In this document: positions 1,178 through 20,888 of the stretch, piece by piece
Layout of the letters: every line of letters begins with the position of its first letter
Position numbering within the stretch: position 1 is the stretch's first letter
Origin: a virus
Strand: one strand, 5' to 3'
DNA length: 29,111 nucleotides
IMG/VR virus record: IMGVR_UViG_3300042387_000583
Span: 1 to 29,111 of that record
Program-made: the position numbers and the translations under genes
The notes under the pieces: model-generated
What the model was told of the DNA's origin: nothing
Seen by the model: the letters and a program-made list of their open reading frames with translations, nothing else
The model's database searches: none

Positions 1178-2524
1178 ATGAGCATAGGTATCTATGTAGA
1201 AAGTAATGAAACAAATAGTCTAGTTAATCAGACCTTGATTACCCCGACTCCAACAGAAGTAAAGATATTCGCCCGACAGATAGATAAGTCCAACCCACAG
1301 GCTCGTTGCCTATGGCAGGTAACAACTCAGTTAGATATGCCTGAAAGTGTAGTGACTAAAAGCCCTATTGCAGTTATCTTGACCGATAGGGATATAGAAG
1401 CCTTATCAAGAAACAATGTATCTACTCTAGGTGTCAAGGCTATTAGAGCCAACGAGACTCATGGAACAGTATTAGGACTATCACAACCACACGATAAGTT
1501 AGTCCAAGAATTAGTAGATAGATTAAAGTCAGCCGACGAAACTCTTAACAATCTAGTTACTGACAATCGTAGGAACAACCCTATTATCCTTAGACCTATT
1601 CCTTATGAACAAGAAGTAACTAACAGGGTAGTTAATGTAGATATACAAGCCCCAGAAAAACAGCATAGTTATTCTATGGAAATGGCAACGATTCCAGATA
1701 TGAAATGGAGTCGAGATTACATTACTCGCAAGTTAGTTAATAACCTCACCGAGTTTGAGGTATATGACAATGCCATGCGTAACCATGAAAATATCCTATT
1801 AGAGGGACATGCAGGGTCAGGTAAGACAATGTCAGTATTGGCATACGCAAGTGCCAGAGGACATAGATATTACAATGTCTCATCTCATATTGGATTAGAA
1901 GCAAGCCAACTATTCGGTAAATGGATTCCAACCCCAGACGGACACTTCCGTTGGCAAGACGGCGCAGTAACCGAGTTAGTTCGTAATGGTGGCGTATTAT
2001 TACTGAACGAAGTTAATTTTATGCCAGAACGAGTAACTACAGTATTGTTCGGACTACTAGACGCTAGGCGTGAGATTCAACTCATGGATAATAACGGCGA
2101 AGTTATCAAGGCTCATAACGAGTTATTAGTAATCGCTGATATGAACCCTAACTATCGTGGTACTCGACCAATGAACCAAGCATGGAAAGATAGATTCCAC
2201 CATATAATCGAGTTCCCTTATGACAAGGCTATTGAAACCAAGTTAGTTAAAAGCCCTGCTCTTATCAACCTTGCTAATCAACTTAGAGATGAGTTTGATA
2301 AGGAAGCAATCGAAACTCCAATATCAACTCGTAAGTTAGTAGCGTTCATTAACAATACTGATAACTTAGGACTTGATTATGCAACCTATTGTTTCATAAA
2401 TGGATTTGCTGAACATGAACGCCAAGCAGTTAAGTTAGTCATGGAAACTCACAAAGCCAATCTTGTTACTGACTTAGTACCTGCAACTAACAAGGTTGTT
2501 ACTGAAAGTGAAGTGAACCTATAA
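1178..2524 (+). CDS. CobS/MoxR-type AAA+ ATPase
   Basis: A 448-residue AAA+ ATPase. Residues 1-170 are a phage-specific N-terminal region. The ATPase core follows: Walker A GHAGSGKT (210-217); a Walker B-like LLLNE (274-278) in which the usual Asp is Asn277; a sensor-1 region ADMNPN (about 320-325); and a candidate arginine finger in KDRFHH. Layout and motifs fit the MoxR/CobS/NorQ/CbbQ group, whose members remodel target proteins together with a VWA-domain partner. That partner follows directly: this gene's TAA overlaps the ATG at 2524 (TAATG). Phage relatives are often labelled cobaltochelatase CobS, but cobalt insertion cannot be inferred from sequence. The Walker B Asn may slow hydrolysis; the catalytic Glu278 is kept. 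Confidence 0.9.
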   Translation: MSIGIYVESNETNSLVNQTLITPTPTEVKIFARQIDKSNPQARCLWQVTTQLDMPESVVTKSPIAVILTDRDIEALSRNNVSTLGVKAIRANETHGTVLGLSQPHDKLVQELVDRLKSADETLNNLVTDNRRNNPIILRPIPYEQEVTNRVVNVDIQAPEKQHSYSMEMATIPDMKWSRDYITRKLVNNLTEFEVYDNAMRNHENILLEGHAGSGKTMSVLAYASARGHRYYNVSSHIGLEASQLFGKWIPTPDGHFRWQDGAVTELVRNGGVLLLNEVNFMPERVTTVLFGLLDARREIQLMDNNGEVIKAHNELLVIADMNPNYRGTRPMNQAWKDRFHHIIEFPYDKAIETKLVKSPALINLANQLRDEFDKEAIETPISTRKLVAFINNTDNLGLDYATYCFINGFAEHERQAVKLVMETHKANLVTDLVPATNKVVTESEVNL

Positions 2525-4731
2525 TGTCAGCCTTGACAGATAAAGTATTAAGAAATTGGCATGACGACGGCTATGGAAGTAAGCACAACTACTTCTATAG
2601 AAATGCAGACTTATTAGATAGTGATGTCATAGATGAGGACACAGTAAAGTTATTCTTAGTAGAAATAACTAATGACTTTACTAAGATACTTGAAACTCCT
2701 ATTAGACATATATCTCTTTGGGCAATAGAAAAGGTTAGAGACGACTCTTACGGAACTCTATTAGAAGTTGATTACACCAACTTAATGTCTGATGATTACA
2801 AGGCTAATACTATGAAAGTATTATCAGAGATGATAAACAGGCTTGATAGTATTCATAACGAAGTTCAGGAATTAAATTGGAAAGATGAACAAGACCGAGA
2901 AATTAAAATGCAAGAGTTCAGACAATTCCAATCTGATACTACTTCCAAGATAGATTCACTAACAGCCGTATATGCTAAGGCTGATAGTGTGCTATCTAGT
3001 GAGACGATAGATGTCAAGGTAGTTAATGAACCTGATAAACCTAATCCAGCATGGACAGACGGCAAGATTATCAGCCTTAATAAAGCCGTACTTGATGATA
3101 TTACCAATCTTACTGACGAAGCATTAACAGTATTAAATGGTATTAACTATCATGAGTTAGCCCATATCTTATTCTCACCTAGAGTAAATACAAAGTTTGC
3201 TAAATGGGTAATGGAAAAGCAATACCTAGCAACTTGTCAGTTATTAGAGGACATAAGAATAGAAACTAAACTGATAACTATGTATCCAAGTACCAAGCCT
3301 TTTATTGAATCAACCTTTTATCGCCATGTGTTAAACACTAATGGGCTTGTTAGTCTTAGACCAGAGTTGTTTGCCAGAGTCTATGGTGCTAAATATATCA
3401 GCCTTGATATTCGTCAAGAAATTGTTAATCAACACAAACAAGTATTGACAGCAGAAGTAATGCAGGATATTGCCAACCTTGTTAATGAATATCGCTTGTT
3501 ATCTTATCCACGCGATTATCAAAAGGGTATGGATATTATCGAGAAGTTCAGTAAATATGTAGCACTACCTCAAGGTAACGCCCAAAAGGAAGCAGTAGGG
3601 TGCAGTAATCAACCTTTCAATGGTAAGGGTCGCCCAATAGGTCAAAAGGAACAAGATTACGCAACTCCAACAGGCGAAAATGACGAATTACAATTACCAA
3701 CAGAAAGCGACAATACTGATACTGATAATGGTAATAGCCCTGATAACAATACTGATAGTGACTCTAATAACAATACTGATAGTAATGAACAAGGCAATAA
3801 GACTAAGAACTCTAAGTTAAGTGACAACGCTATTAGTGAAATAAATAAACGCATGAGTGAATTAGTATCTAATAGTGATGTCAAACAAAAGAATAAGGAT
3901 ATTCGTAAGTCTATTGCTAATGAGGACAGCGTTAGGAATCCATTACGCAAAGCAAACCACTACAAAGCGCTTCCAAACACCTCTTACTCATCTATGGCAA
4001 CTAAGTTCGGTAATGAATTAGAACGATTAAGAACCGACTTAGACCCAATGTGGGAACAAGAAACTCCAAGTGGCAGATTAAATATCCAACGAGCCATGAA
4101 GCGTGATATTAACAGCCTTGATACTTTATTTGATAAATGGAGTGAGGGGTCAGACGCATGTGATATTGAAGCAGTAATCCTATTAGATAACTCAGGTTCA
4201 ATGATGAACTCCATGCAAGAAGTATGCCAAGCAACATGGGCTATGAAGCGTGGTATCGAGAAAATACAGGGTGATGTAACAGTATTAACTTTCAATGGAA
4301 CTGCTAGAAAATTATACGAGAAGCATGAAAAGGCTACCAATGCCTTTCGTGCAGTAGAATCTAGTGGTTGCACAGACCCTACTGAGGCTCTTAGATTAGC
4401 CGAGCAGATATTAGTTAAAAGTAAAAGACAAACAAGATTGTTACTTGTAGTTACTGACGGCTATTGGTCAAACGATACTACTTGTAACTTAACAATACAA
4501 AGCATGAACGACTCAGGAGTTATATCAAGCCTTGTATATTATGGTCAAACAGAATATATCCAAAATAGAATAAGACTTGCAAAGCATGACGCTAAAGAGG
4601 AAAGGGATTTACAAAAGTTCGTTAAGCATAACTGCACTCTATTCAACGCAGTTGATACTCCAAAGGACTTGTTAAAAGTAGCAACTATGATTGTAAAAGA
4701 ACGAATCAAAGAAGTATCTAGGGTCGCCTAG
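2524..4731 (+). CDS. CobT-like protein with HExxH metallopeptidase motif and VWA domain
   Basis: A 735-residue protein and likely partner of the ATPase before it. Residues 1-170 are helical. A metallopeptidase-like region carries HELAH (210-214), a match to the zinc motif HExxH, followed by LLEDIRIE (240-247), which could supply a third ligand. Residues 385-430 form a low-complexity Asp/Asn/Ser/Thr linker. A C-terminal VWA domain has the metal-ion-dependent adhesion site DNSGS (554-558) and the later TDG that usually completes it (VVTDGYW, about 643-649). The helical N-terminus, acidic linker and C-terminal VWA recall CobT; the HExxH recalls VWA proteins with a DUF2201-type metallopeptidase domain. 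In such pairs the VWA subunit usually recognises the target and the AAA+ ring supplies energy. Whether this one cleaves protein is unknown. Confidence 0.85.
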   Translation: MSALTDKVLRNWHDDGYGSKHNYFYRNADLLDSDVIDEDTVKLFLVEITNDFTKILETPIRHISLWAIEKVRDDSYGTLLEVDYTNLMSDDYKANTMKVLSEMINRLDSIHNEVQELNWKDEQDREIKMQEFRQFQSDTTSKIDSLTAVYAKADSVLSSETIDVKVVNEPDKPNPAWTDGKIISLNKAVLDDITNLTDEALTVLNGINYHELAHILFSPRVNTKFAKWVMEKQYLATCQLLEDIRIETKLITMYPSTKPFIESTFYRHVLNTNGLVSLRPELFARVYGAKYISLDIRQEIVNQHKQVLTAEVMQDIANLVNEYRLLSYPRDYQKGMDIIEKFSKYVALPQGNAQKEAVGCSNQPFNGKGRPIGQKEQDYATPTGENDELQLPTESDNTDTDNGNSPDNNTDSDSNNNTDSNEQGNKTKNSKLSDNAISEINKRMSELVSNSDVKQKNKDIRKSIANEDSVRNPLRKANHYKALPNTSYSSMATKFGNELERLRTDLDPMWEQETPSGRLNIQRAMKRDINSLDTLFDKWSEGSDACDIEAVILLDNSGSMMNSMQEVCQATWAMKRGIEKIQGDVTVLTFNGTARKLYEKHEKATNAFRAVESSGCTDPTEALRLAEQILVKSKRQTRLLLVVTDGYWSNDTTCNLTIQSMNDSGVISSLVYYGQTEYIQNRIRLAKHDAKEERDLQKFVKHNCTLFNAVDTPKDLLKVATMIVKERIKEVSRVA

Positions 4732-4742
4732 ATAACCAAGCC

Positions 4743-4791
4743 CCTGATTATCGGTTGGAGTTACTTGTCCTTTCGCCAGCCGATAGTCAGG
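4743..4791. other. Strong 16-bp hairpin between operons
   Basis: Bases 4743-4758 pair with 4776-4791 along all 16 positions (14 Watson-Crick, two G-T wobbles), with a 17-base loop. No T-run follows, so it is not a standard terminator. It lies between the VWA gene stop and the next start at 4818, where it could protect or process mRNA, attenuate transcription, or bind protein as DNA. Confidence 0.65.
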
Positions 4792-4817
4792 CTCTATAAG
4801 TTAGGAAAGGAAAACAA

Positions 4818-5009
4818 ATGATAAGTAATTTATTTATGGTTGCAACTTTCATGATAATAATAGGCTCAGCATTAGTCTTGATATTCGATAGAGATGAAAA
4901 GACTAAATACATATCAAGGGAACACCAAGATTTCATGCGCTTCTACAGAGCCATGAAAAGAATACAAGAAGCCGATAACAAGGCTATTAAAAGAAAGGGA
5001 AAGAAATAA
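4818..5009 (+). CDS. Small single-pass membrane protein
   Basis: A 63-residue protein with one hydrophobic segment (about residues 5-23) followed by a charged, helical, Lys/Arg-rich tail ending RKGKK. The basic C-terminus suggests a cytoplasmic tail with the N-terminus outside. A good ribosome binding site (AGGAAAGGA) precedes the ATG. It opens a run of small rightward genes after the 16-bp hairpin, and the next gene starts on the base after its stop. A function in lysis or superinfection exclusion is possible, but nothing in the sequence decides this. Confidence 0.65.
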   Translation: MISNLFMVATFMIIIGSALVLIFDRDEKTKYISREHQDFMRFYRAMKRIQEADNKAIKRKGKK

Positions 5010-5300
5010 ATGGATACTCCAACACAAACAACACAAACTTTTGCCAGCGCAGATGACCCCTTTGATTCAGGGGTGTTCAAGCCGATTATTATTATTGACC
5101 AATACTCAGCCATGTATGTCTATTACAAAGCATTAAGCGATAGATATGACATAAGCCATGAGGTTGAGTATATGAATTACCAAGAACCAGAGTGGCATGA
5201 AAACTTGACAGAAGCAGAAGCAGAAGCAAAGATAGTAGAACTACAAAACCACAGCGTAGCAAGAGACAGCGAGTTGTTACACCAAGAGATAAAGAGATAA
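5010..5300 (+). CDS. Acidic protein of unknown function
   Basis: A 96-residue acidic protein. The first 20 residues are Thr/Gln/Asp-rich and probably disordered; FKPIIIIDQYSAMYVYYKAL (about 23-42) could form a strand and helix; the C-terminal third is a charged helix rich in Glu and Ala. There is no Cys and no membrane segment long enough to span. It starts immediately after the previous stop, with a ribosome binding site (AAAGGGAAAG) inside the preceding gene's last codons. I recognise no family. Confidence 0.65.
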   Translation: MDTPTQTTQTFASADDPFDSGVFKPIIIIDQYSAMYVYYKALSDRYDISHEVEYMNYQEPEWHENLTEAEAEAKIVELQNHSVARDSELLHQEIKR

Positions 5301-5314
5301 GAGAGATAAAAATA

Positions 5315-5524
5315 ATGAGAGTAAAAGAACTAAGAGAGCAATTAAATAAATATAAAGATGATGATGAGATTATTGTATCGCTTCATCATAAAAGTGATTA
5401 TCAGTTACATGACCAAGAAATATCAGAGCAAATATGGAGTGAAGTATGTGAAAAGGCTGATAATCAAGGCTATGACCAACTATTAACTAATCTAATTGCT
5501 GATGATGTGGATAGTCATGCCTAA
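5315..5524 (+). CDS. Small acidic helical protein of unknown function
   Basis: A 69-residue acidic protein. The opening, MRVKELREQLNKYKDDDEIIV, resembles the start of many small phage and bacterial proteins of the type MTVKELIEELKKFDPDAEV, a short helix followed by a strand; this is a resemblance, not a functional assignment. A purine-rich AGAGATA lies upstream. The last eight bases overlap the start of the next gene, so they are probably translated as a pair. Confidence 0.6.
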   Translation: MRVKELREQLNKYKDDDEIIVSLHHKSDYQLHDQEISEQIWSEVCEKADNQGYDQLLTNLIADDVDSHA

Positions 5525-5696
5525 TTATGAAGTTAATGCAGAGCAGACTCACTACTACACGATAAAAGTAGAAGCCAAAGACACAGAGGAAGCGTTTGAG
5601 AAAGCATGTGCAACCCCTGTTGATAAATGGGTAGAGAGACAAAGCCCAGACTTATATGTATATAGAGATGAAGATGATATTAAGGAAGTTGAGTAA
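5517..5696 (+). CDS. Small protein, possibly DpnD/PcfM-like fold
   Basis: 59 residues from the ATG at 5517 (MPNYEVNAEQ). I prefer this to the in-frame ATG at 5496, because that start would overlap the previous gene by 29 bases and add an out-of-character MLMMWIV. The pattern YTIKVEAKDTEEAFEKA, a strand followed by a helix, recalls the short domain seen in DpnD/PcfM-like proteins; this is a weak resemblance. The C-terminus is acidic. Its TAA overlaps the next ATG (TAATG). Confidence 0.55.
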   Translation: MPNYEVNAEQTHYYTIKVEAKDTEEAFEKACATPVDKWVERQSPDLYVYRDEDDIKEVE

Positions 5697-5869
5697 TGGA
5701 AGACACACTATACGGCGCACCTTTTTTTGATTTAGTAATCCAAGATTGGTGGTTATCACTTTACATAGAAAATGTAATAGGACTTGATATTTCATGGTTC
5801 GGCGCATTACTGATAGCAGGACTAGGAGTGGTAGTCTATTGGGTAAAGAGACGCAGGAAGCGTAAATAA
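5696..5869 (+). CDS. Small single-pass membrane protein
   Basis: A 57-residue protein found by following the TAATG overlap at 5694-5698. It begins MEDTLYGAPF, has a hydrophobic segment ISWFGALLIAGLGVVVYWV (about 32-50) and ends in a basic cluster, KRRRKRK. By the positive-inside rule the C-terminus would be cytoplasmic. Its stop lies directly before the ATG of the Ntn-hydrolase gene. The clean frame and clear topology support a real gene. A holin-like or anchoring role is possible but unproven. Confidence 0.6.
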   Translation: MEDTLYGAPFFDLVIQDWWLSLYIENVIGLDISWFGALLIAGLGVVVYWVKRRRKRK

Positions 5870-6406
5870 ATGACCACGATAATAGGGTTGCAGAAACCAG
5901 ACCATTGTTTGCTAATCGCAGACTCTCGTACAACCGACGATGGTGGTCGTACCTATTCTCACCCTATTGTCAGTAAGATTACCAAAAGAGGTAAGTATCT
6001 AATCGCAGGTTCGGGATTAACTCAGCCATGCGATATTGTCCAGCATGTATGGAAACCACCAGCAATACCTACTAATGCTAAGAAAGATTTATACCACTTT
6101 GTTATATCAGAAGTAGTGCCCTCTATTAGAGAAGCGTTAAATGCTAATGGTTATATTCCAGATAAAGAGAATAGTAACGAGCCAGATTTCTTATTCTTAA
6201 TAGCAATTCAAGGAACTATCTTTGAGTTAGACGAGTCTCTATCAGTAATGATGAGAGATGACGGCTTATATGGAATAGGTAGTGGTTCGCCGTATGCAAT
6301 AGGCGCATTACAAGCAGGGGCTACATGGAGAAAAGCGATGCAGATTGCATGTAAGAATAATATATTTAGTGCACCACCTTTTATTACACACACACAGAGG
6401 AGATAA
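5870..6406 (+). CDS. HslV/20S proteasome beta-like Ntn hydrolase
   Basis: A 178-residue protein resembling HslV and proteasome beta subunits along its length. It begins MTTIIG, as HslV begins MTTI, so removing Met would expose the catalytic N-terminal Thr1 with no propeptide. Counting from Thr1: ADSR gives the expected Asp17; Lys35 in VSKI lies near the usual Lys33; AGSG (45-48) matches the glycine loop; and GIGSGSPYAIGAL (134-146) matches the Ser129-region signature. The length is close to HslV (about 175) and shorter than many beta subunits. HslV works in rings fed by HslU; no HslU is visible here, and the only AAA+ ATPase nearby is the CobS/MoxR-type one upstream. It could degrade host or phage proteins, or join host proteasome rings. 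The C-terminal part after residue 165 is divergent. Confidence 0.85.
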   Translation: MTTIIGLQKPDHCLLIADSRTTDDGGRTYSHPIVSKITKRGKYLIAGSGLTQPCDIVQHVWKPPAIPTNAKKDLYHFVISEVVPSIREALNANGYIPDKENSNEPDFLFLIAIQGTIFELDESLSVMMRDDGLYGIGSGSPYAIGALQAGATWRKAMQIACKNNIFSAPPFITHTQRR

Positions 6407-6408
6407 TA

Positions 6409-6612
6409 ATGTTCTATTGGGGCGATTACTTAGCCGTAGTATTACTCGTAGGAGTAGCAAGTTTTTTAGCAGGTTGGACAGCGTACGGATTCGCAGAGCG
6501 TAAAGATAAAAAGATAAACCAAGAAGATTTAGACGCTTATGTAGATATTATGTGGGCACACTATAAAGAAAGGTATGCTCAAGATGAGCGCCGTCACAAA
6601 GATAGAGGCTAG
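6409..6612 (+). CDS. Small single-pass membrane protein
   Basis: A 67-residue protein with a hydrophobic segment (YLAVVLLVGVASFLAGWTAYGF, about 7-28, with a possible GxxxG-like face) and a highly charged C-terminal helix (about 30-67) that should lie in the cytoplasm. A ribosome binding site, GAGGAGATA, lies just upstream, overlapping the end of the Ntn-hydrolase gene, so the two are likely co-translated. It could anchor a complex at the membrane; no family recognised. Confidence 0.65.
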   Translation: MFYWGDYLAVVLLVGVASFLAGWTAYGFAERKDKKINQEDLDAYVDIMWAHYKERYAQDERRHKDRG

Positions 6613-6769
6613 ATATATAAGGCTCAAAACTTGTAAGAAGTGTGGGGACACCCAAGTGTTTAGAAAGCCTAGCGAACCTTTATTACAGTTAGATTATCAA
6701 GGAGAGTTATCAAAGTGGAGAGAGATAGTTTTATCTCGCTATATGAAATACCACAAGTGTAATGTTTGA
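6584..6769 (+). CDS. Small zinc-ribbon-like protein
   Basis: 61 residues from the ATG at 6584, which has AAAGAAAGG about 10 bases upstream; the ATG at 6575 is too close to that site. CKKCGD (about 17-22) and HKC near the C-terminus could hold one zinc ion. The middle is helical with two Trp/Tyr-rich stretches. The gene overlaps its neighbours on both sides (29 bases upstream, 8 downstream), consistent with coupled translation. Function unknown. Confidence 0.6.
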   Translation: MSAVTKIEARYIRLKTCKKCGDTQVFRKPSEPLLQLDYQGELSKWREIVLSRYMKYHKCNV

Positions 6770-7517
6770 AAATAGTCCAAGAATTAACGACGACAATAAC
6801 CTAGTACCTGAAAACACAGTTGTAATAGTACCTAAGATTGGTATTACCAAAGAGAGTATTAGCAATGTTATTGAATCTCTTAAGGGCGAAAAGAAAAGAG
6901 ACTTCTTTGTTGAAGCCTCATACTTCTGTTTACCTATGATGATTGCCAACCAATACGGTTTTATTATCAAAAGCACAAGTAATCTAACAATAAAATGGGA
7001 CGGAAAGAAGCCTTTAACCTTTATTGAAAAAGATGAGCTTCCGGGTGGTTTGCATGTATCAAACAGCCCTCAAAGCAATGTTATTAACTTTAGAATACCT
7101 TTCATGTTGAGAACACCACCTTTAGTTAATCTTATGGTCTTAGCCCCACCTAACTTTATGTTACCCACAGGGATAACAGTATTAAATGGAGTTGTAGAGA
7201 CAGATAACTTACAGTTTGATTTCACTTTGAACTTGATGATAAATGAACCAATGACAGTAGAGATTCCCAAAGGCACTCCGATAACAGCGTTGATTCCAAT
7301 ACCAAGAGGTTTTGCAGATAGTTTTGAATTAAAACATGCTGATGAACTATATGATAACAAGGTTATTAACTTTGAGAAACTAAGTCATGGGCAATGGGAA
7401 CACATACGAGATACAGTAGATAAACAACACTATGCAGAAACAGGGCAAAGAGGTAGAAGATACTTCAAAGGGATAGATGCCTGGAACAATCCCTTTAGAT
7501 TCTTTCATCAAAAATAA
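6762..7517 (+). CDS. DUF6065-like protein
   Basis: A 251-residue soluble protein, the last gene of the rightward block. It resembles the DUF6065 family as I remember it: YFCLPMMIANQYGF (about 48-61) matches that family's CLPLxIANxxGW; FRIPFMLRTPPLVNLMVLAPPN (about 107-128) matches its FxxPYLFRTPPGxNLxVxGPxN; a strand reading GVVETDNLQFDFTLN and a proline-rich IPIPRG follow. Members occur in bacteria and phages and have no known activity. The C-terminus (about 205-251) is charged and helical. Six bases after the stop codon the bidirectional terminator begins. The family call is from pattern memory and needs a profile search. Confidence 0.6.
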   Translation: MFENSPRINDDNNLVPENTVVIVPKIGITKESISNVIESLKGEKKRDFFVEASYFCLPMMIANQYGFIIKSTSNLTIKWDGKKPLTFIEKDELPGGLHVSNSPQSNVINFRIPFMLRTPPLVNLMVLAPPNFMLPTGITVLNGVVETDNLQFDFTLNLMINEPMTVEIPKGTPITALIPIPRGFADSFELKHADELYDNKVINFEKLSHGQWEHIRDTVDKQHYAETGQRGRRYFKGIDAWNNPFRFFHQK

Positions 7518-7518
7518 T

Positions 7519-7555
7519 AAAAGCCCCTAGTCATTAAAACTAGGGGCTTTTTAAT
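7519..7555. terminator. Bidirectional terminator between convergent operons
   Basis: AAAAGCCCCTAG (7519-7530) pairs perfectly with CTAGGGGCTTTT (7540-7551) over 12 bp, with a 9-base loop. A T-run follows rightward and an A-run precedes it, giving a T-run leftward, so it can stop transcription from both sides. It sits exactly between the DUF6065-like gene and the reductase gene. Confidence 0.93.
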
Positions 7556-7560
7556 TGATA

Positions 7561-9579
7561 TTACTTTGGAATCTCACAAAAATCAGTAGAGCAATACTTC
7601 TCACCAATAGCGTCGGCTGCCATTCCTGCGTACACATCTGTGAAGTCAATTGGCAATAAATCGTATTTATACTTTTCGTATTCATCTTTAGTTATCTGTG
7701 TGTATGGCATTTGTGGGTAAGTCTCGTTCCCCATAGGTAAGAAGGAAACGGTTTTGAGTTGCCCATCAAACATGTGCAGAACTGTGCCTACGGCATCTTT
7801 TTCTTTATCTTTGTTAAAGGATACTGTTACTGATACTGAGTTGTCTGACCAATGTCTTTGAGCCATCGCTGCGAGTGATACTTTCTCATAGATAGAAACA
7901 TCTTTCTCAGAACGAGAGGCGCTTGATTCAACTGGGAAAAATACAACTGAAGTAGTCTTTGGTGATTCACTAGCAGGTTCGACTCTGTAATTAGCAAACT
8001 TAAAGAGAGGCAACATAGGGTCTTCGTTAGCAAATCTAATAGAGCGTAAGAAGTATTGACCACCGGGAGTCCAATGAACCCCGGGAGATTCTCCTGCAAG
8101 GATTGATACTGTTCCTGATGGCTTTACTGTTGTTAATTTTATCGATTCTCTAATACCAAACCATTCAGAATACACATGGTCATAGTATTGAACTGTTGAG
8201 TAGCCTGACTCCATCCACTCACGCAATACTGGTAAGCCAACTCTGTCAGCAAAGTTAGCAATACCTGAAATAGAAGTACCAATGCGACGATTGCGTTGCA
8301 TGATTGCGTTAGTTTCTTCCCAATGAGTAGGGATAAGCGTAACTGTCTTGGCGTATAAGAAAGCAAACTTCAATGTTCTCTTGAAATCTTCTAGGCTGTC
8401 ATGTCTGTTTAAGTATGTTTCAACGAGAGTACAGCACTCGAATGACTCAAGTGATTGTTCTGCACATGGGTTATATCCGGCTGCGCGATGGTCTTTGTTA
8501 TTAGGTGGGTCAATAAGTCTCCCGTATTTACGGGTTACATCCATCCATATAACGCCCGGCTCACCATTTAATGCAATGCCGTCGATAATAGTAGATAGGT
8601 CATCACCAACAGATACTTCAACAGAGTTGTTAGACATCCAAGCCCAACCCGGATTCTTTGTATCGTATGAGTTTCTTTGTGGATATACTTCTGGGTTCTT
8701 TAGATTAAGGAAGTCTTTATCATCCAAGCGACCAAGCAATAGTTCAGCAGAACGTCGTACATTTCCTGATACAACACAAACTCCGATTAAATTACCAATG
8801 TCTGCAATATCAACTCTAGTTAGTTTAGAACCTGCACGATTAGCGAATATTACCGAGATTGCCTTGTGTAAACGCATCAACGGTTCGGGCCCAGCTGCTG
8901 TGCCTCCAAAAGTTTTAATAGGTGCTCCTGCTGGTCTTACTTGAGAATAGTCAAATATTAGTTTAGATTGGTCTGGTTTTAGATAAGAATTGATTAGTGC
9001 GTTAGTTGATTCAACCCATCCCTCTCTGGTATCTGGGATGACATGGGTAACTTCTTCTTTTGGTTCGTAGATGGTGAAATCTTTATCTGCACCCTTGTCA
9101 TCAAATCCCACACCCACTCCAAGCATGGATGCTTCCATTAGAAATGCAAATGGTTTAGCAGGGTCTAGTTTAGTCATAGACGCAGTAGAAACAAATGAAC
9201 AGTTTTGCAAAGCGGCGGAGTTTCGTTGTTCATTAACAATAGGAGTTCCCATTACCCATAGTCCTCGACCCGGTGGGGTCCATTTCAAATTAAATAATCT
9301 ATCAAACGCTTCTTTAGCAGAGGCTTGACCTTTGGAATCATTCCATGGAAGTCTGCTGGTTTTACACCAATCCTTTTGAATTGAGTACATGCCATTGATT
9401 ACTCTTTCGCATACATCAACCCATGTCTCTTTAGTTCCATCAGCCTTTAATCTGGAGTAAGTTCTAAGAAAAGTTATTTCCCCAACTGAGTTACCACCTG
9501 CATCTTGATAACCCCAAGGTACTTTTTTATCTTTGTAACCTGCTACGAAATCTTCTGCTAATTTGAACGAAAAAGCCAT
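7561..9579 (-). CDS. nrdJ: Adenosylcobalamin-dependent ribonucleotide reductase (class II, monomeric type)
   Basis: A 672-residue class II reductase that makes deoxynucleotides using adenosylcobalamin; the Lactobacillus leichmannii-type enzyme uses nucleoside triphosphates. Visible catalytic features: Cys127 in LQNCSF; NPCAE (370-374), with the radical Cys372 and Glu374; Cys383 eleven residues later, as in C408/C419 of that enzyme; the phosphate-binding TVKPSGTVSILAGES region; and a C-terminal CSTDFC (663-668) giving the CxxxxC shuttle pair. At 672 residues it is somewhat shorter than the 739-residue reference. No small subunit is needed. The ATG has an AGGAGA site 5 bases upstream and a leader of about 150 bases. 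The phage would need cobalamin from the host or environment. Confidence 0.95.
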   Translation of the reverse strand: MAFSFKLAEDFVAGYKDKKVPWGYQDAGGNSVGEITFLRTYSRLKADGTKETWVDVCERVINGMYSIQKDWCKTSRLPWNDSKGQASAKEAFDRLFNLKWTPPGRGLWVMGTPIVNEQRNSAALQNCSFVSTASMTKLDPAKPFAFLMEASMLGVGVGFDDKGADKDFTIYEPKEEVTHVIPDTREGWVESTNALINSYLKPDQSKLIFDYSQVRPAGAPIKTFGGTAAGPEPLMRLHKAISVIFANRAGSKLTRVDIADIGNLIGVCVVSGNVRRSAELLLGRLDDKDFLNLKNPEVYPQRNSYDTKNPGWAWMSNNSVEVSVGDDLSTIIDGIALNGEPGVIWMDVTRKYGRLIDPPNNKDHRAAGYNPCAEQSLESFECCTLVETYLNRHDSLEDFKRTLKFAFLYAKTVTLIPTHWEETNAIMQRNRRIGTSISGIANFADRVGLPVLREWMESGYSTVQYYDHVYSEWFGIRESIKLTTVKPSGTVSILAGESPGVHWTPGGQYFLRSIRFANEDPMLPLFKFANYRVEPASESPKTTSVVFFPVESSASRSEKDVSIYEKVSLAAMAQRHWSDNSVSVTVSFNKDKEKDAVGTVLHMFDGQLKTVSFLPMGNETYPQMPYTQITKDEYEKYKYDLLPIDFTDVYAGMAADAIGEKYCSTDFCEIPK

Positions 9580-17778: not shown

Positions 17779-18060
17779 TTAACTAGCAATAATTGAAAAT
17801 ACAATTGCAGAAATCTGTCCATCGTGGCTTTCAATTGACGCAAAACCAGGAACACAGACAAGGTCTAGTCCTCTTGGGGCTGCGTACCCACGGGCTATTG
17901 CAATGGCTTTAACGGCTTGATTTACGGCTCCTGCGCCTACAGCACGGACTTTACAGGTACGATTTTCATAGATACTGTGGGCTATTGCTGAGGCTACCGC
18001 TTGAGGGTTACTGCCGCTAGATACGCGCAGTATTTGTTCTTCTTTTTGTTCTTCAGACAT
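17779..18060 (-). CDS. spoVS: SpoVS-like protein
   Basis: A 93-residue protein closely resembling stage V sporulation protein S. The signature VRAVGAGAVNQAVKAIAIARGYAAP (about 38-62) matches SpoVS IQAIGAGALNQAVKAVAIARGFVAP, and the N-terminal LRVSSGSNPQAVASAIA matches its LKVSAKSSPNSVAGALA. SpoVS proteins are small Alba-like folds that probably bind nucleic acid; in Bacillus they affect late sporulation and septation. This phage's likely hosts do not make endospores, so the role is more likely in nucleic-acid binding or regulation. The first 8 residues are acidic. It sits among small genes upstream of the strong terminator. Confidence 0.88.
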   Translation of the reverse strand: MSEEQKEEQILRVSSGSNPQAVASAIAHSIYENRTCKVRAVGAGAVNQAVKAIAIARGYAAPRGLDLVCVPGFASIESHDGQISAIVFSIIAS

Positions 18061-18104: not shown

Positions 18105-18224
18105 TTACTTTTTAATGGGGCTAAGCGGGCAGGTGTGTTTATCCCTTAAATTTTCATATTCTACAAGGCTATTTGCTTCTATTTTGCATCCACAAGGCAA
18201 AGTAGAAGTAATACGAACTGACAC
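18105..18224 (-). CDS. Very small Cys-containing protein
   Basis: A 39-residue protein with a GTG start whose G is shared with the stop of the next gene upstream (TAGTG). The sequence has LPCGCK (about 9-14) and HTCP (30-33), giving three Cys and one His: the CGC...HxCP pattern seen in many tiny phage zinc proteins. The overlap and the metal pattern are the evidence for a real gene; no function proposed. Confidence 0.5.
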   Translation of the reverse strand: MSVRITSTLPCGCKIEANSLVEYENLRDKHTCPLSPIKK

Positions 18225-18463
18225 TAATCCTCCTCTCCATCTATAGGAGTTGGGGCAGTGGCTTTGCTACCACAGAATGTACACTCCATGTCTAAAAAGT
18301 ACATTGAAATACCATCTCCATCAAACATGCAATTTACTTTAAATACAGTTGAACCGCAAACGCATACTGAAGTTGGGGTACCTCTTAAATCCATAGCGTT
18401 TTTGTAATCTGGGACTACTTCGCTAATTGGAATTGAGTTTAGTTTTTCTTCGTTATTTCCCAT
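18224..18463 (-). CDS. Small zinc-ribbon protein
   Basis: A 79-residue acidic protein with CVCGS (about 33-37) and CTFCGS (about 61-66), a classic zinc ribbon of two CxC/CxxC knuckles, with a beta-type stretch between. The surrounding residues are acidic. Start and stop overlap its neighbours (25 bases with the gene upstream and TAGTG with the gene downstream), as in a coupled operon. Function unknown. Confidence 0.65.
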   Translation of the reverse strand: MGNNEEKLNSIPISEVVPDYKNAMDLRGTPTSVCVCGSTVFKVNCMFDGDGISMYFLDMECTFCGSKATAPTPIDGEED

Positions 18464-19716: not shown

Positions 19717-20578
19717 ACTCGAACTCCTTACATTGTTTACATCCATCTATCCCTTTTAAATTACAAATAGGTGGAGTTTTGGTATCAACAGCAGTCACAA
19801 TCATTTGAGCTGCGTCTAGTAACTCTGTAATACCAAAATCACTTTTAGGTATAATAAACTCTTTTACCTCTTGATTTAATTTAGACTCATAAATAATAAC
19901 TGCTTCTTGAGGAGCATCTTCCATACCAATTAATTCCATAAGTTTCATATATAACTGGGCTTGTCTTTGATGGCTATAAAAAGGGGCAGTCATGGATTTC
20001 CAAATTTTCTCAAAATCCCCGTCGTATTTTACTAACAAGTCGGGGTCTTCCCATCTAACAGTTCCAATTCCTAACGATTTAATTTCTAATAGTAATGGGT
20101 CCCCAAATCCAACTAACCAACCATCGGAATGGCCACTAATTTTTAAAGGTTCGTAAGATAATGAAACTTCTCTATAAGTAAAAGGTCCAACACACTGTTC
20201 TTTTGCCTGACTATGTAATCCCCAAAAAAGTTCATTGCAATGACTACAAAGCCATGAACCAATAATTTTATCCATATCTTTAAACCACTCTTGCCACTTA
20301 GCATGTATTCTGTGGCCTTCTTCAAACATTAGTTCTCGTTTTAAGGGAGACCTAAAAGAAGAATCAGCTGGTGTATATCCTTGCAATTTATAATAAGAAG
20401 TTCTATGACACCAAAAGGGTTTAACCATATCTGATGGATGAAGTACATCTTGTCTTCTATCAGTATTCTGTGGTTTAGATAATAAATATCTTTCTATTGA
20501 GTTAATTACTCTTGTATCTTTTTTACCCACGTCGATGAACTGCTTTAGTGCTTTTGACGGTTTGTACTTTGTTGTCAT
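19703..20578 (-). CDS. Cas4-like PD-(D/E)XK exonuclease
   Basis: A 291-residue nuclease. PD-(D/E)XK elements: GHRIH (88-92), SGHSDGW with Asp152, LEIKS with Glu165 and Lys167, and HQRQAQLYM (203-211). One N-terminal Cys57 and three C-terminal Cys (272, 280, 283) fit the 4Fe-4S cluster of Cas4/AddB-like enzymes. A separate CSHC...H...C knuckle (111-129) looks like a zinc insertion. Phage proteins of this type act as recombination exonucleases that process DNA ends for a RecA-like partner, which is nearby; there is no CRISPR system here. It overlaps the WhiB gene upstream by 56 bases. Confidence 0.85.
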   Translation of the reverse strand: MTTKYKPSKALKQFIDVGKKDTRVINSIERYLLSKPQNTDRRQDVLHPSDMVKPFWCHRTSYYKLQGYTPADSSFRSPLKRELMFEEGHRIHAKWQEWFKDMDKIIGSWLCSHCNELFWGLHSQAKEQCVGPFTYREVSLSYEPLKISGHSDGWLVGFGDPLLLEIKSLGIGTVRWEDPDLLVKYDGDFEKIWKSMTAPFYSHQRQAQLYMKLMELIGMEDAPQEAVIIYESKLNQEVKEFIIPKSDFGITELLDAAQMIVTAVDTKTPPICNLKGIDGCKQCKEFEYVTN

Positions 20579-20888
20579 TTTCTTTTACCCACTCTTCTAA
20601 CGTTTTACCATTACGTATGGCTTTACGTTTAAGAGCGTTCCTCTCCCTATGACTGAGCCCGCCCCAGATACCGTGCTGTTCGTCCATACTATCTGCATAT
20701 AACAAACATGCAATACGCACAGGGCATTCTGGTGCACCATCTTTACCAAAGCAAACAGCTTTTGCTTTATCTGCAATTTTTTTATATTTAGTCTTGTCTC
20801 TTGGGGGATACCATAATTCGGTGTCAAGCCCGCGACATTTGGCTTTATAACGCCAATCATTTACTTCGTTGCCTTCGTACAAGAACAC
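20523..20888 (-). CDS. whiB: WhiB-family iron-sulphur regulator
   Basis: A 121-residue WhiB-like protein, confined to actinobacteria and their phages. Counting from the GTG, the four cluster Cys are 18, 46, 55 and 61, then HGIWGG (72-77), the family's G[VI]WGG turn, and a basic C-terminal tail (87-121) for DNA binding. The spacing C-x8-C-x5-C differs from the usual C-x2-C-x5-C: FGKDGAPE replaces two residues. The start may be TTG at 20882, since AGGAG lies 5 bases before it and touches the GTG at 20888. Phage WhiB proteins can repress host WhiB-regulated division and exclusion genes; here the target is unknown. Confidence 0.92.
   Translation of the reverse strand: MFLYEGNEVNDWRYKAKCRGLDTELWYPPRDKTKYKKIADKAKAVCFGKDGAPECPVRIACLLYADSMDEQHGIWGGLSHRERNALKRKAIRNGKTLEEWVKENDNKVQTVKSTKAVHRRG

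Follow-up and report, generated by a model that had tools for sequence, protein, structure and literature searches.

What does a bacteriophage do with a proteasome-like peptidase when its genome encodes no dedicated unfoldase to work beside it? The question is raised by one gene in the 29,111-base stretch of viral DNA analysed here, an IMG/VR record that we refer to throughout as the window. Fuchs, Alva and Lupas described the phage-borne proteasome homologs PPH, AAH and CPH in 2021, reporting neither a co-occurring AAA+ protein nor a genomic context for them, and AAH in no actinobacteria-specific phage (PMC8665760); a jumbo-phage paper has likewise noted HslV without HslU (PMC7823757). Phage proteasome-like peptidases are already known in kind, through that survey and through the PHROGs. 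Here we describe a close-knit form of them that is very common in the phages of freshwater actinobacteria and positionally mobile within their genomes, features that are new to this study.

The product of the gene is a phage-encoded proteasome-like threonine (Ntn) hydrolase. It matches PHROG 1040, the 'peptidase HslV family', over residues 1–177 (E = 1e-25), and a profile built from 22 relatives and compared with the PDB reaches HslV at 1e-16 (positions 2–171) and BPH at 6e-14, full length. As a single sequence it scores 16.7 bits against Pfam Proteasome (PF00227; E = 0.0058), below the 22.4-bit cut-off, which we attribute to divergence given how far the family profile still extends. An AlphaFold2 model of the monomer (37 homologs; pLDDT 92.9, pTM 0.88), in which helices are predicted at 51–60 and 74–92, retrieves BPH first from the PDB with Foldseek (5ovs, E = 7.5e-11, TM up to 0.75), followed by HslV (1e94, 2.3e-9) and 20S β-subunits, and these three head the 982 PDB fold matches at E ≤ 0.001; in BFVD the model matches many phage proteins. 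Profile and fold thus both bear out the sequence-only reading, which had proposed a phage-encoded proteasome/HslV-like peptidase.

The ORF lies where that reading had placed it, with an ATG start and a plausible ribosome-binding site containing AGGA about 10 bases 5′ of the ATG (Table 1). In mature numbering, after removal of the start methionine, the protein has Thr1, Asp17, Lys35, a glycine loop and GSGS at 136–139 (137–140 in the precursor). The active-site lysine had been expected near position 33; Lys35 is its equivalent, offset by a two-residue insertion. The HslV-like MTTI start, which leaves Thr1 free of any propeptide, is likewise evident. Among 56 representative homologs, ranging from members of the protein's own clade as far as E. 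coli HslV, 55 keep Thr1 and one has Ser in its place, and Asp17, the catalytic lysine and both glycines of GSG are present in all. To judge by the alignment, such conservation of catalytic residues, glycine loop and GSGS far exceeds chance. An HxWxPP motif is conserved and family-specific. A divergent C-terminal region after residue 165 had also been suggested, and this holds loosely: the Asp166 equivalent (precursor residue 164), variable across the family, is Asn in the window protein, but HslV homology extends as far as residue 171 or so. In gene pairs that include the window, pS is 0.67–0.86 and pN 0.15–0.34, with protein identities of 60–77%; silent sites near saturation together with low pN indicate strong purifying selection on the peptidase.

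Table 1 Features of the window discussed in the text, by position
Feature	Position	Strand	Remarks
CobS/MoxR-like AAA+ ATPase (AAA_5, PHROG 249)	1178..2524	+	nearby gene; partnership not conserved
VWA-domain protein, companion of the CobS-like ATPase	2524..4731	+	left edge of the variable gap
Probable ribosome-binding site	5850..5869	+	caggaagcgtaaataa before the ATG; read from sequence
Extent of nucleotide similarity to other freshwater phages	5864..6414	+	~70–72%
Proteasome-like (HslV/BPH-type) peptidase ORF	5870..6406	+	178 aa, ATG start
Class II (B12-dependent) ribonucleotide reductase (NrdJ)	7561..9579	-	right edge of the variable gap
WhiB-family transcription factor	20523..20888	-	marks an actinobacterial host

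Known systems resemble this protein to different degrees. The phage proteins of PHROG 1040 have the same length and active site, and the window protein is a member with no defining difference. BPH (5ovs, 5ovt and 5ovu), the best fold match, shares the propeptide-free start, an acidic pore loop and the lack of a known unfoldase, but is chromosomal, only 20–24% identical and a tetradecameric double ring, whereas the window protein was modelled as a monomer. The same limit applies to comparison with HslV (ClpQ), a dodecameric double hexamer: HslV is the best sequence-profile match in the PDB and shares the MTTI start and the group I fold without S12/H5, but the window protein has no HslU and a longer acidic pore loop, with 15–21% identity in fold alignments. 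This loop, located where the pore loop normally lies, carries a net charge of −3 in the window protein and −1 to −5 across its freshwater clade, as compared with +2 in E. coli HslV; for BPH, the long acidic loop has been connected to its lack of an unfoldase (PMC8665760). PPH is likewise phage-borne, but at about 140 aa lacks helix H2, whereas the window protein has H1 and H2 and lies elsewhere in the tree. AAH (also from Fuchs et al. 2021) has a similar length, an actinobacterial link and a PP motif after H1; the probable AAH proteins of Streptomyces and rhizobial plasmids, which stand in here for the reference AAH sequences, form a separate clade (100/98). The 20S β-subunit differs in having a propeptide and a companion α-subunit. 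No second proteasome-like subunit was found, either as a PF00227 match in the record or as a family-profile match among the window ORFs.

Relatives are numerous. Scanning IMG/VR gave at least 541 confirmed ones, and related proteins occur in named Phapecoctavirus, Microbacterium, Arthrobacter, Vibrio, Geobacillus, Caulobacter and rhizobial phages. The tree nests the window protein inside a nine-row subclade (100/97), itself part of a clade of freshwater phages with 36 rows (100/98), and this larger clade stands apart from both the PPH-like and the probable AAH groups. The WhiB gene of the window, found also in many of its relatives, indicates actinobacterial hosts. The closest named records, OX376640 (described as LanE43-AprE7) and OX376641, are unannotated genomes of 39.1 and 38.9 kb. 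These sizes equal those of E7 and F5, Planktophila phages that were the first infecting 'Ca. Nanopelagicales' to be cultured (PMC10202952), and by name and size the two records probably correspond to them. A search of genome contigs for chromosomal relatives with a 10-row alignment gave a match in one Gammaproteobacteria MAG contig, and a plasmid search with the peptidase protein of Pumpernickel gave no matches. Two rhizobial plasmids carry proteasome-like genes of two different subfamilies inside nitrogen-fixation clusters, one beside nifQ/nifS (L136, 3001–3546) and the other beside nifB/nifT (L138, 1860–2393).

The near-complete genomes with this peptidase share a backbone of about 41 kb in which TerL, portal, a protein of ~1,600–1,800 aa, a scaffold-like protein and MCP are followed by DnaB, a Holliday-junction-resolvase-like protein, TOPRIM and sigma. 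The peptidase gene is present in 10 of 11 records of at least 40 kb chosen by MCP alone; an unfiltered profile search over 40.0 kb found none in one 41.2-kb genome (G059) with TerL, portal and MCP. Its position is not fixed. With about a dozen contigs counted twice because two scans returned them, the gene lies directly 3′ of portal in about 140–150 loci, mostly across a gap of 14–15 bases, and in about 60 it is flanked by the zinc-finger ORF of a primase and by the TOPRIM ORF, 56 of these having a 4-base overlap. Elsewhere it follows TOPRIM or DnaB, lies on the opposite strand beside a lysis gene or stands alone, and the gene tree requires at least six changes of position within the shared backbone. 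In one locus (L041, 9675–11178), the peptidase gene separates the zinc-finger and TOPRIM ORFs of a split primase and shares 4 bases with the latter. An 82,688-base record (IMGVR_UViG_3300027754_000069) has two peptidase regions, ~74% identical and spaced 42,054 bases from each other; it resembles a fusion of two phage genomes of ~41 kb, either an assembly chimera or a true double genome.

The window phage itself belongs to a different and larger lineage, with relatives of up to 93.4 kb. Profile searches found the peptidase gene in none of 30 window relatives selected by PolA, records of 93.4, 80.6 and 64.3 kb among them, whereas the same profile detected it in 17 of the 24 records used for comparison; an unfiltered repeat search, for which the window served as positive control, agreed. 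In six of the 30 relatives, the block of CobS, VWA, gap and NrdJ is retained without a peptidase. Within window positions 4732–7600, nucleotide similarity to other freshwater phages was absent outside the stretch given in Table 1. Similarity that ends at the edges of the gene, in a lineage whose 30 searched relatives lack it, indicates that the peptidase entered the variable gap alone, and by these sequence comparisons it is a single-gene acquisition from the pool of ~41-kb freshwater actinophages, one represented in the window species by a single contig, since the nearest siblings (100% at PolA) stop short of the locus. Side by side with the peptidase, the gap holds a DUF6065 protein gene (6762–7517, + strand; Pfam E = 3e-28). 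More broadly, the CobS-like AAA, VWA protein and class II ribonucleotide reductase at 1178–9579 form a block conserved in relatives of ~80–93 kb, and the VWA–reductase gap, 1.8–3.7 kb long, is a hotspot of small ORFs.

Seen in the window alone, the gene invites a simple interpretation, namely that the peptidase makes up an HslUV-like machine with the CobS/MoxR-like AAA+ ATPase, whose gene lies on the same strand and in the same neighbourhood, 3.3 kb upstream. Phage DSL-LC01 also carries both genes, 10 kb apart. However, the CobS-like gene is missing from nearly all other peptidase carriers tested, and CobS–VWA is retained without the peptidase in the six window relatives described above; co-occurrence thus rules out the ATPase as a dedicated partner in both directions, and we regard a machine of this kind as extremely improbable. 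The earlier statement that no HslU is adjacent stands, with the correction that an AAA+ gene is present upstream, although unlinked. Unfoldases of the AAA_2 (ClpX/HslU/ClpA) type occur in none of 30 carrier records and none of the Pfam-scanned genes of the window, nor is a ClpX/HslU-type unfoldase encoded in 25 near-complete freshwater relatives; PF00004 matches in the ~40-kb phages that were checked correspond to the DnaB-like helicase ORF. The peptidase is, in this sense, an orphan. Its wandering position uncouples its function from that of any neighbour and excludes the AAA gene, to which the window on its own would point.

Given these observations, we favour, as the rather more probable account, an orphan self-compartmentalizing peptidase of the BPH/HslV type that acts in trans on host or infection-specific proteins. 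The start methionine would be removed to free Thr1 as the nucleophile, with Asp17 and Lys35 completing the site. Fold and group I relatives suggest that the subunits most likely form a double ring of their own, of BPH/HslV type, which may, as has been suggested for BPH, accept small or unfolded proteins unaided, or else borrow an unfoldase from the host. That the gene is kept in single copy while its genome position changes argues for action in trans, and the phage would probably benefit by degrading, in the course of the lytic cycle, proteins of the host or proteins specific to infection.

Other functions have to be weighed against this proposal. The gene order of the ~41-kb phages would suit a head-maturation protease that clears the scaffold or trims capsid proteins as the head is assembled: the gene directly follows portal, the usual slot of a prohead protease, in about 140 loci, the order in Sinorhizobium phage phiM5 is TerL–peptidase–portal–scaffold–MCP, and scans of head-module ORFs in three ~41-kb phages turned up no known prohead protease. 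Phages with the same head module nevertheless also carry the peptidase gene elsewhere, within the replication operon, next to DnaB or next to a lysis gene; G059 has the head genes without the peptidase, the window lineage has a genome plan of its own that lacks it, and a scaffold without any protease is the case in many phages. We consider a role in head maturation unlikely. Still less plausible, in our assessment, is a false β-subunit that enters or poisons the host 20S proteasome, an idea raised on first reading of the sequence. Actinobacteria typically have a 20S proteasome and the fold is β-like, but the 20S β chains among the listed matches are only 14–18% identical to the peptidase, which has no propeptide; its active site is intact, something that a poison subunit would not need; relatives occur in phages of E. 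coli and Vibrio, hosts without a 20S proteasome; and group I homologs build homomeric rings of their own (PMC8665760). Joining or poisoning the host particle is accordingly less likely than a homomeric ring. That the proteasome-like family includes a ligase, connectase (PMC8665760), and that the conserved HxWxPP motif could shape specificity, would be consistent with a specific processing enzyme or connectase-type ligase in place of a bulk protease. The S3/S4 insertion of connectase is absent from the peptidase, however, and the ring-contact helices H1 and H2 are predicted in the model, which leaves such an activity doubtful at best.

Going beyond the orphan ring peptidase that we favour, a broader and more tentative reading is that these proteins form an actinophage-specific subfamily apart from PPH and AAH, in which a stand-alone ring protease, near-universal and single-copy in phages of the dominant freshwater actinobacteria, moves freely among replication, head and lysis modules and serves infection generally, independent of any unfoldase from the phage. 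If true, this would define an actinophage-specific infection protease open to study in cultured Planktophila phages. The phages in which this related peptidase form is common infect a bacterial group that ranks among the most abundant in fresh water, and LanE-43 with E7 and F5 provides a cultured phage–host pair as a system in which its role can be studied.

Two further genes of the window deserve mention. A 79-aa CxC/CxxC protein (18224–18463, - strand) has up to 63% identity with proteins of the 41-kb phages, where most loci with this gene have it 3.3–4.3 kb upstream of the peptidase gene; it may be another transferred gene or a marker of a shared gene pool. The 93-aa product at 17779–18060 (- strand) has the look of the SpoVS family, which we take to be unusual in a phage.
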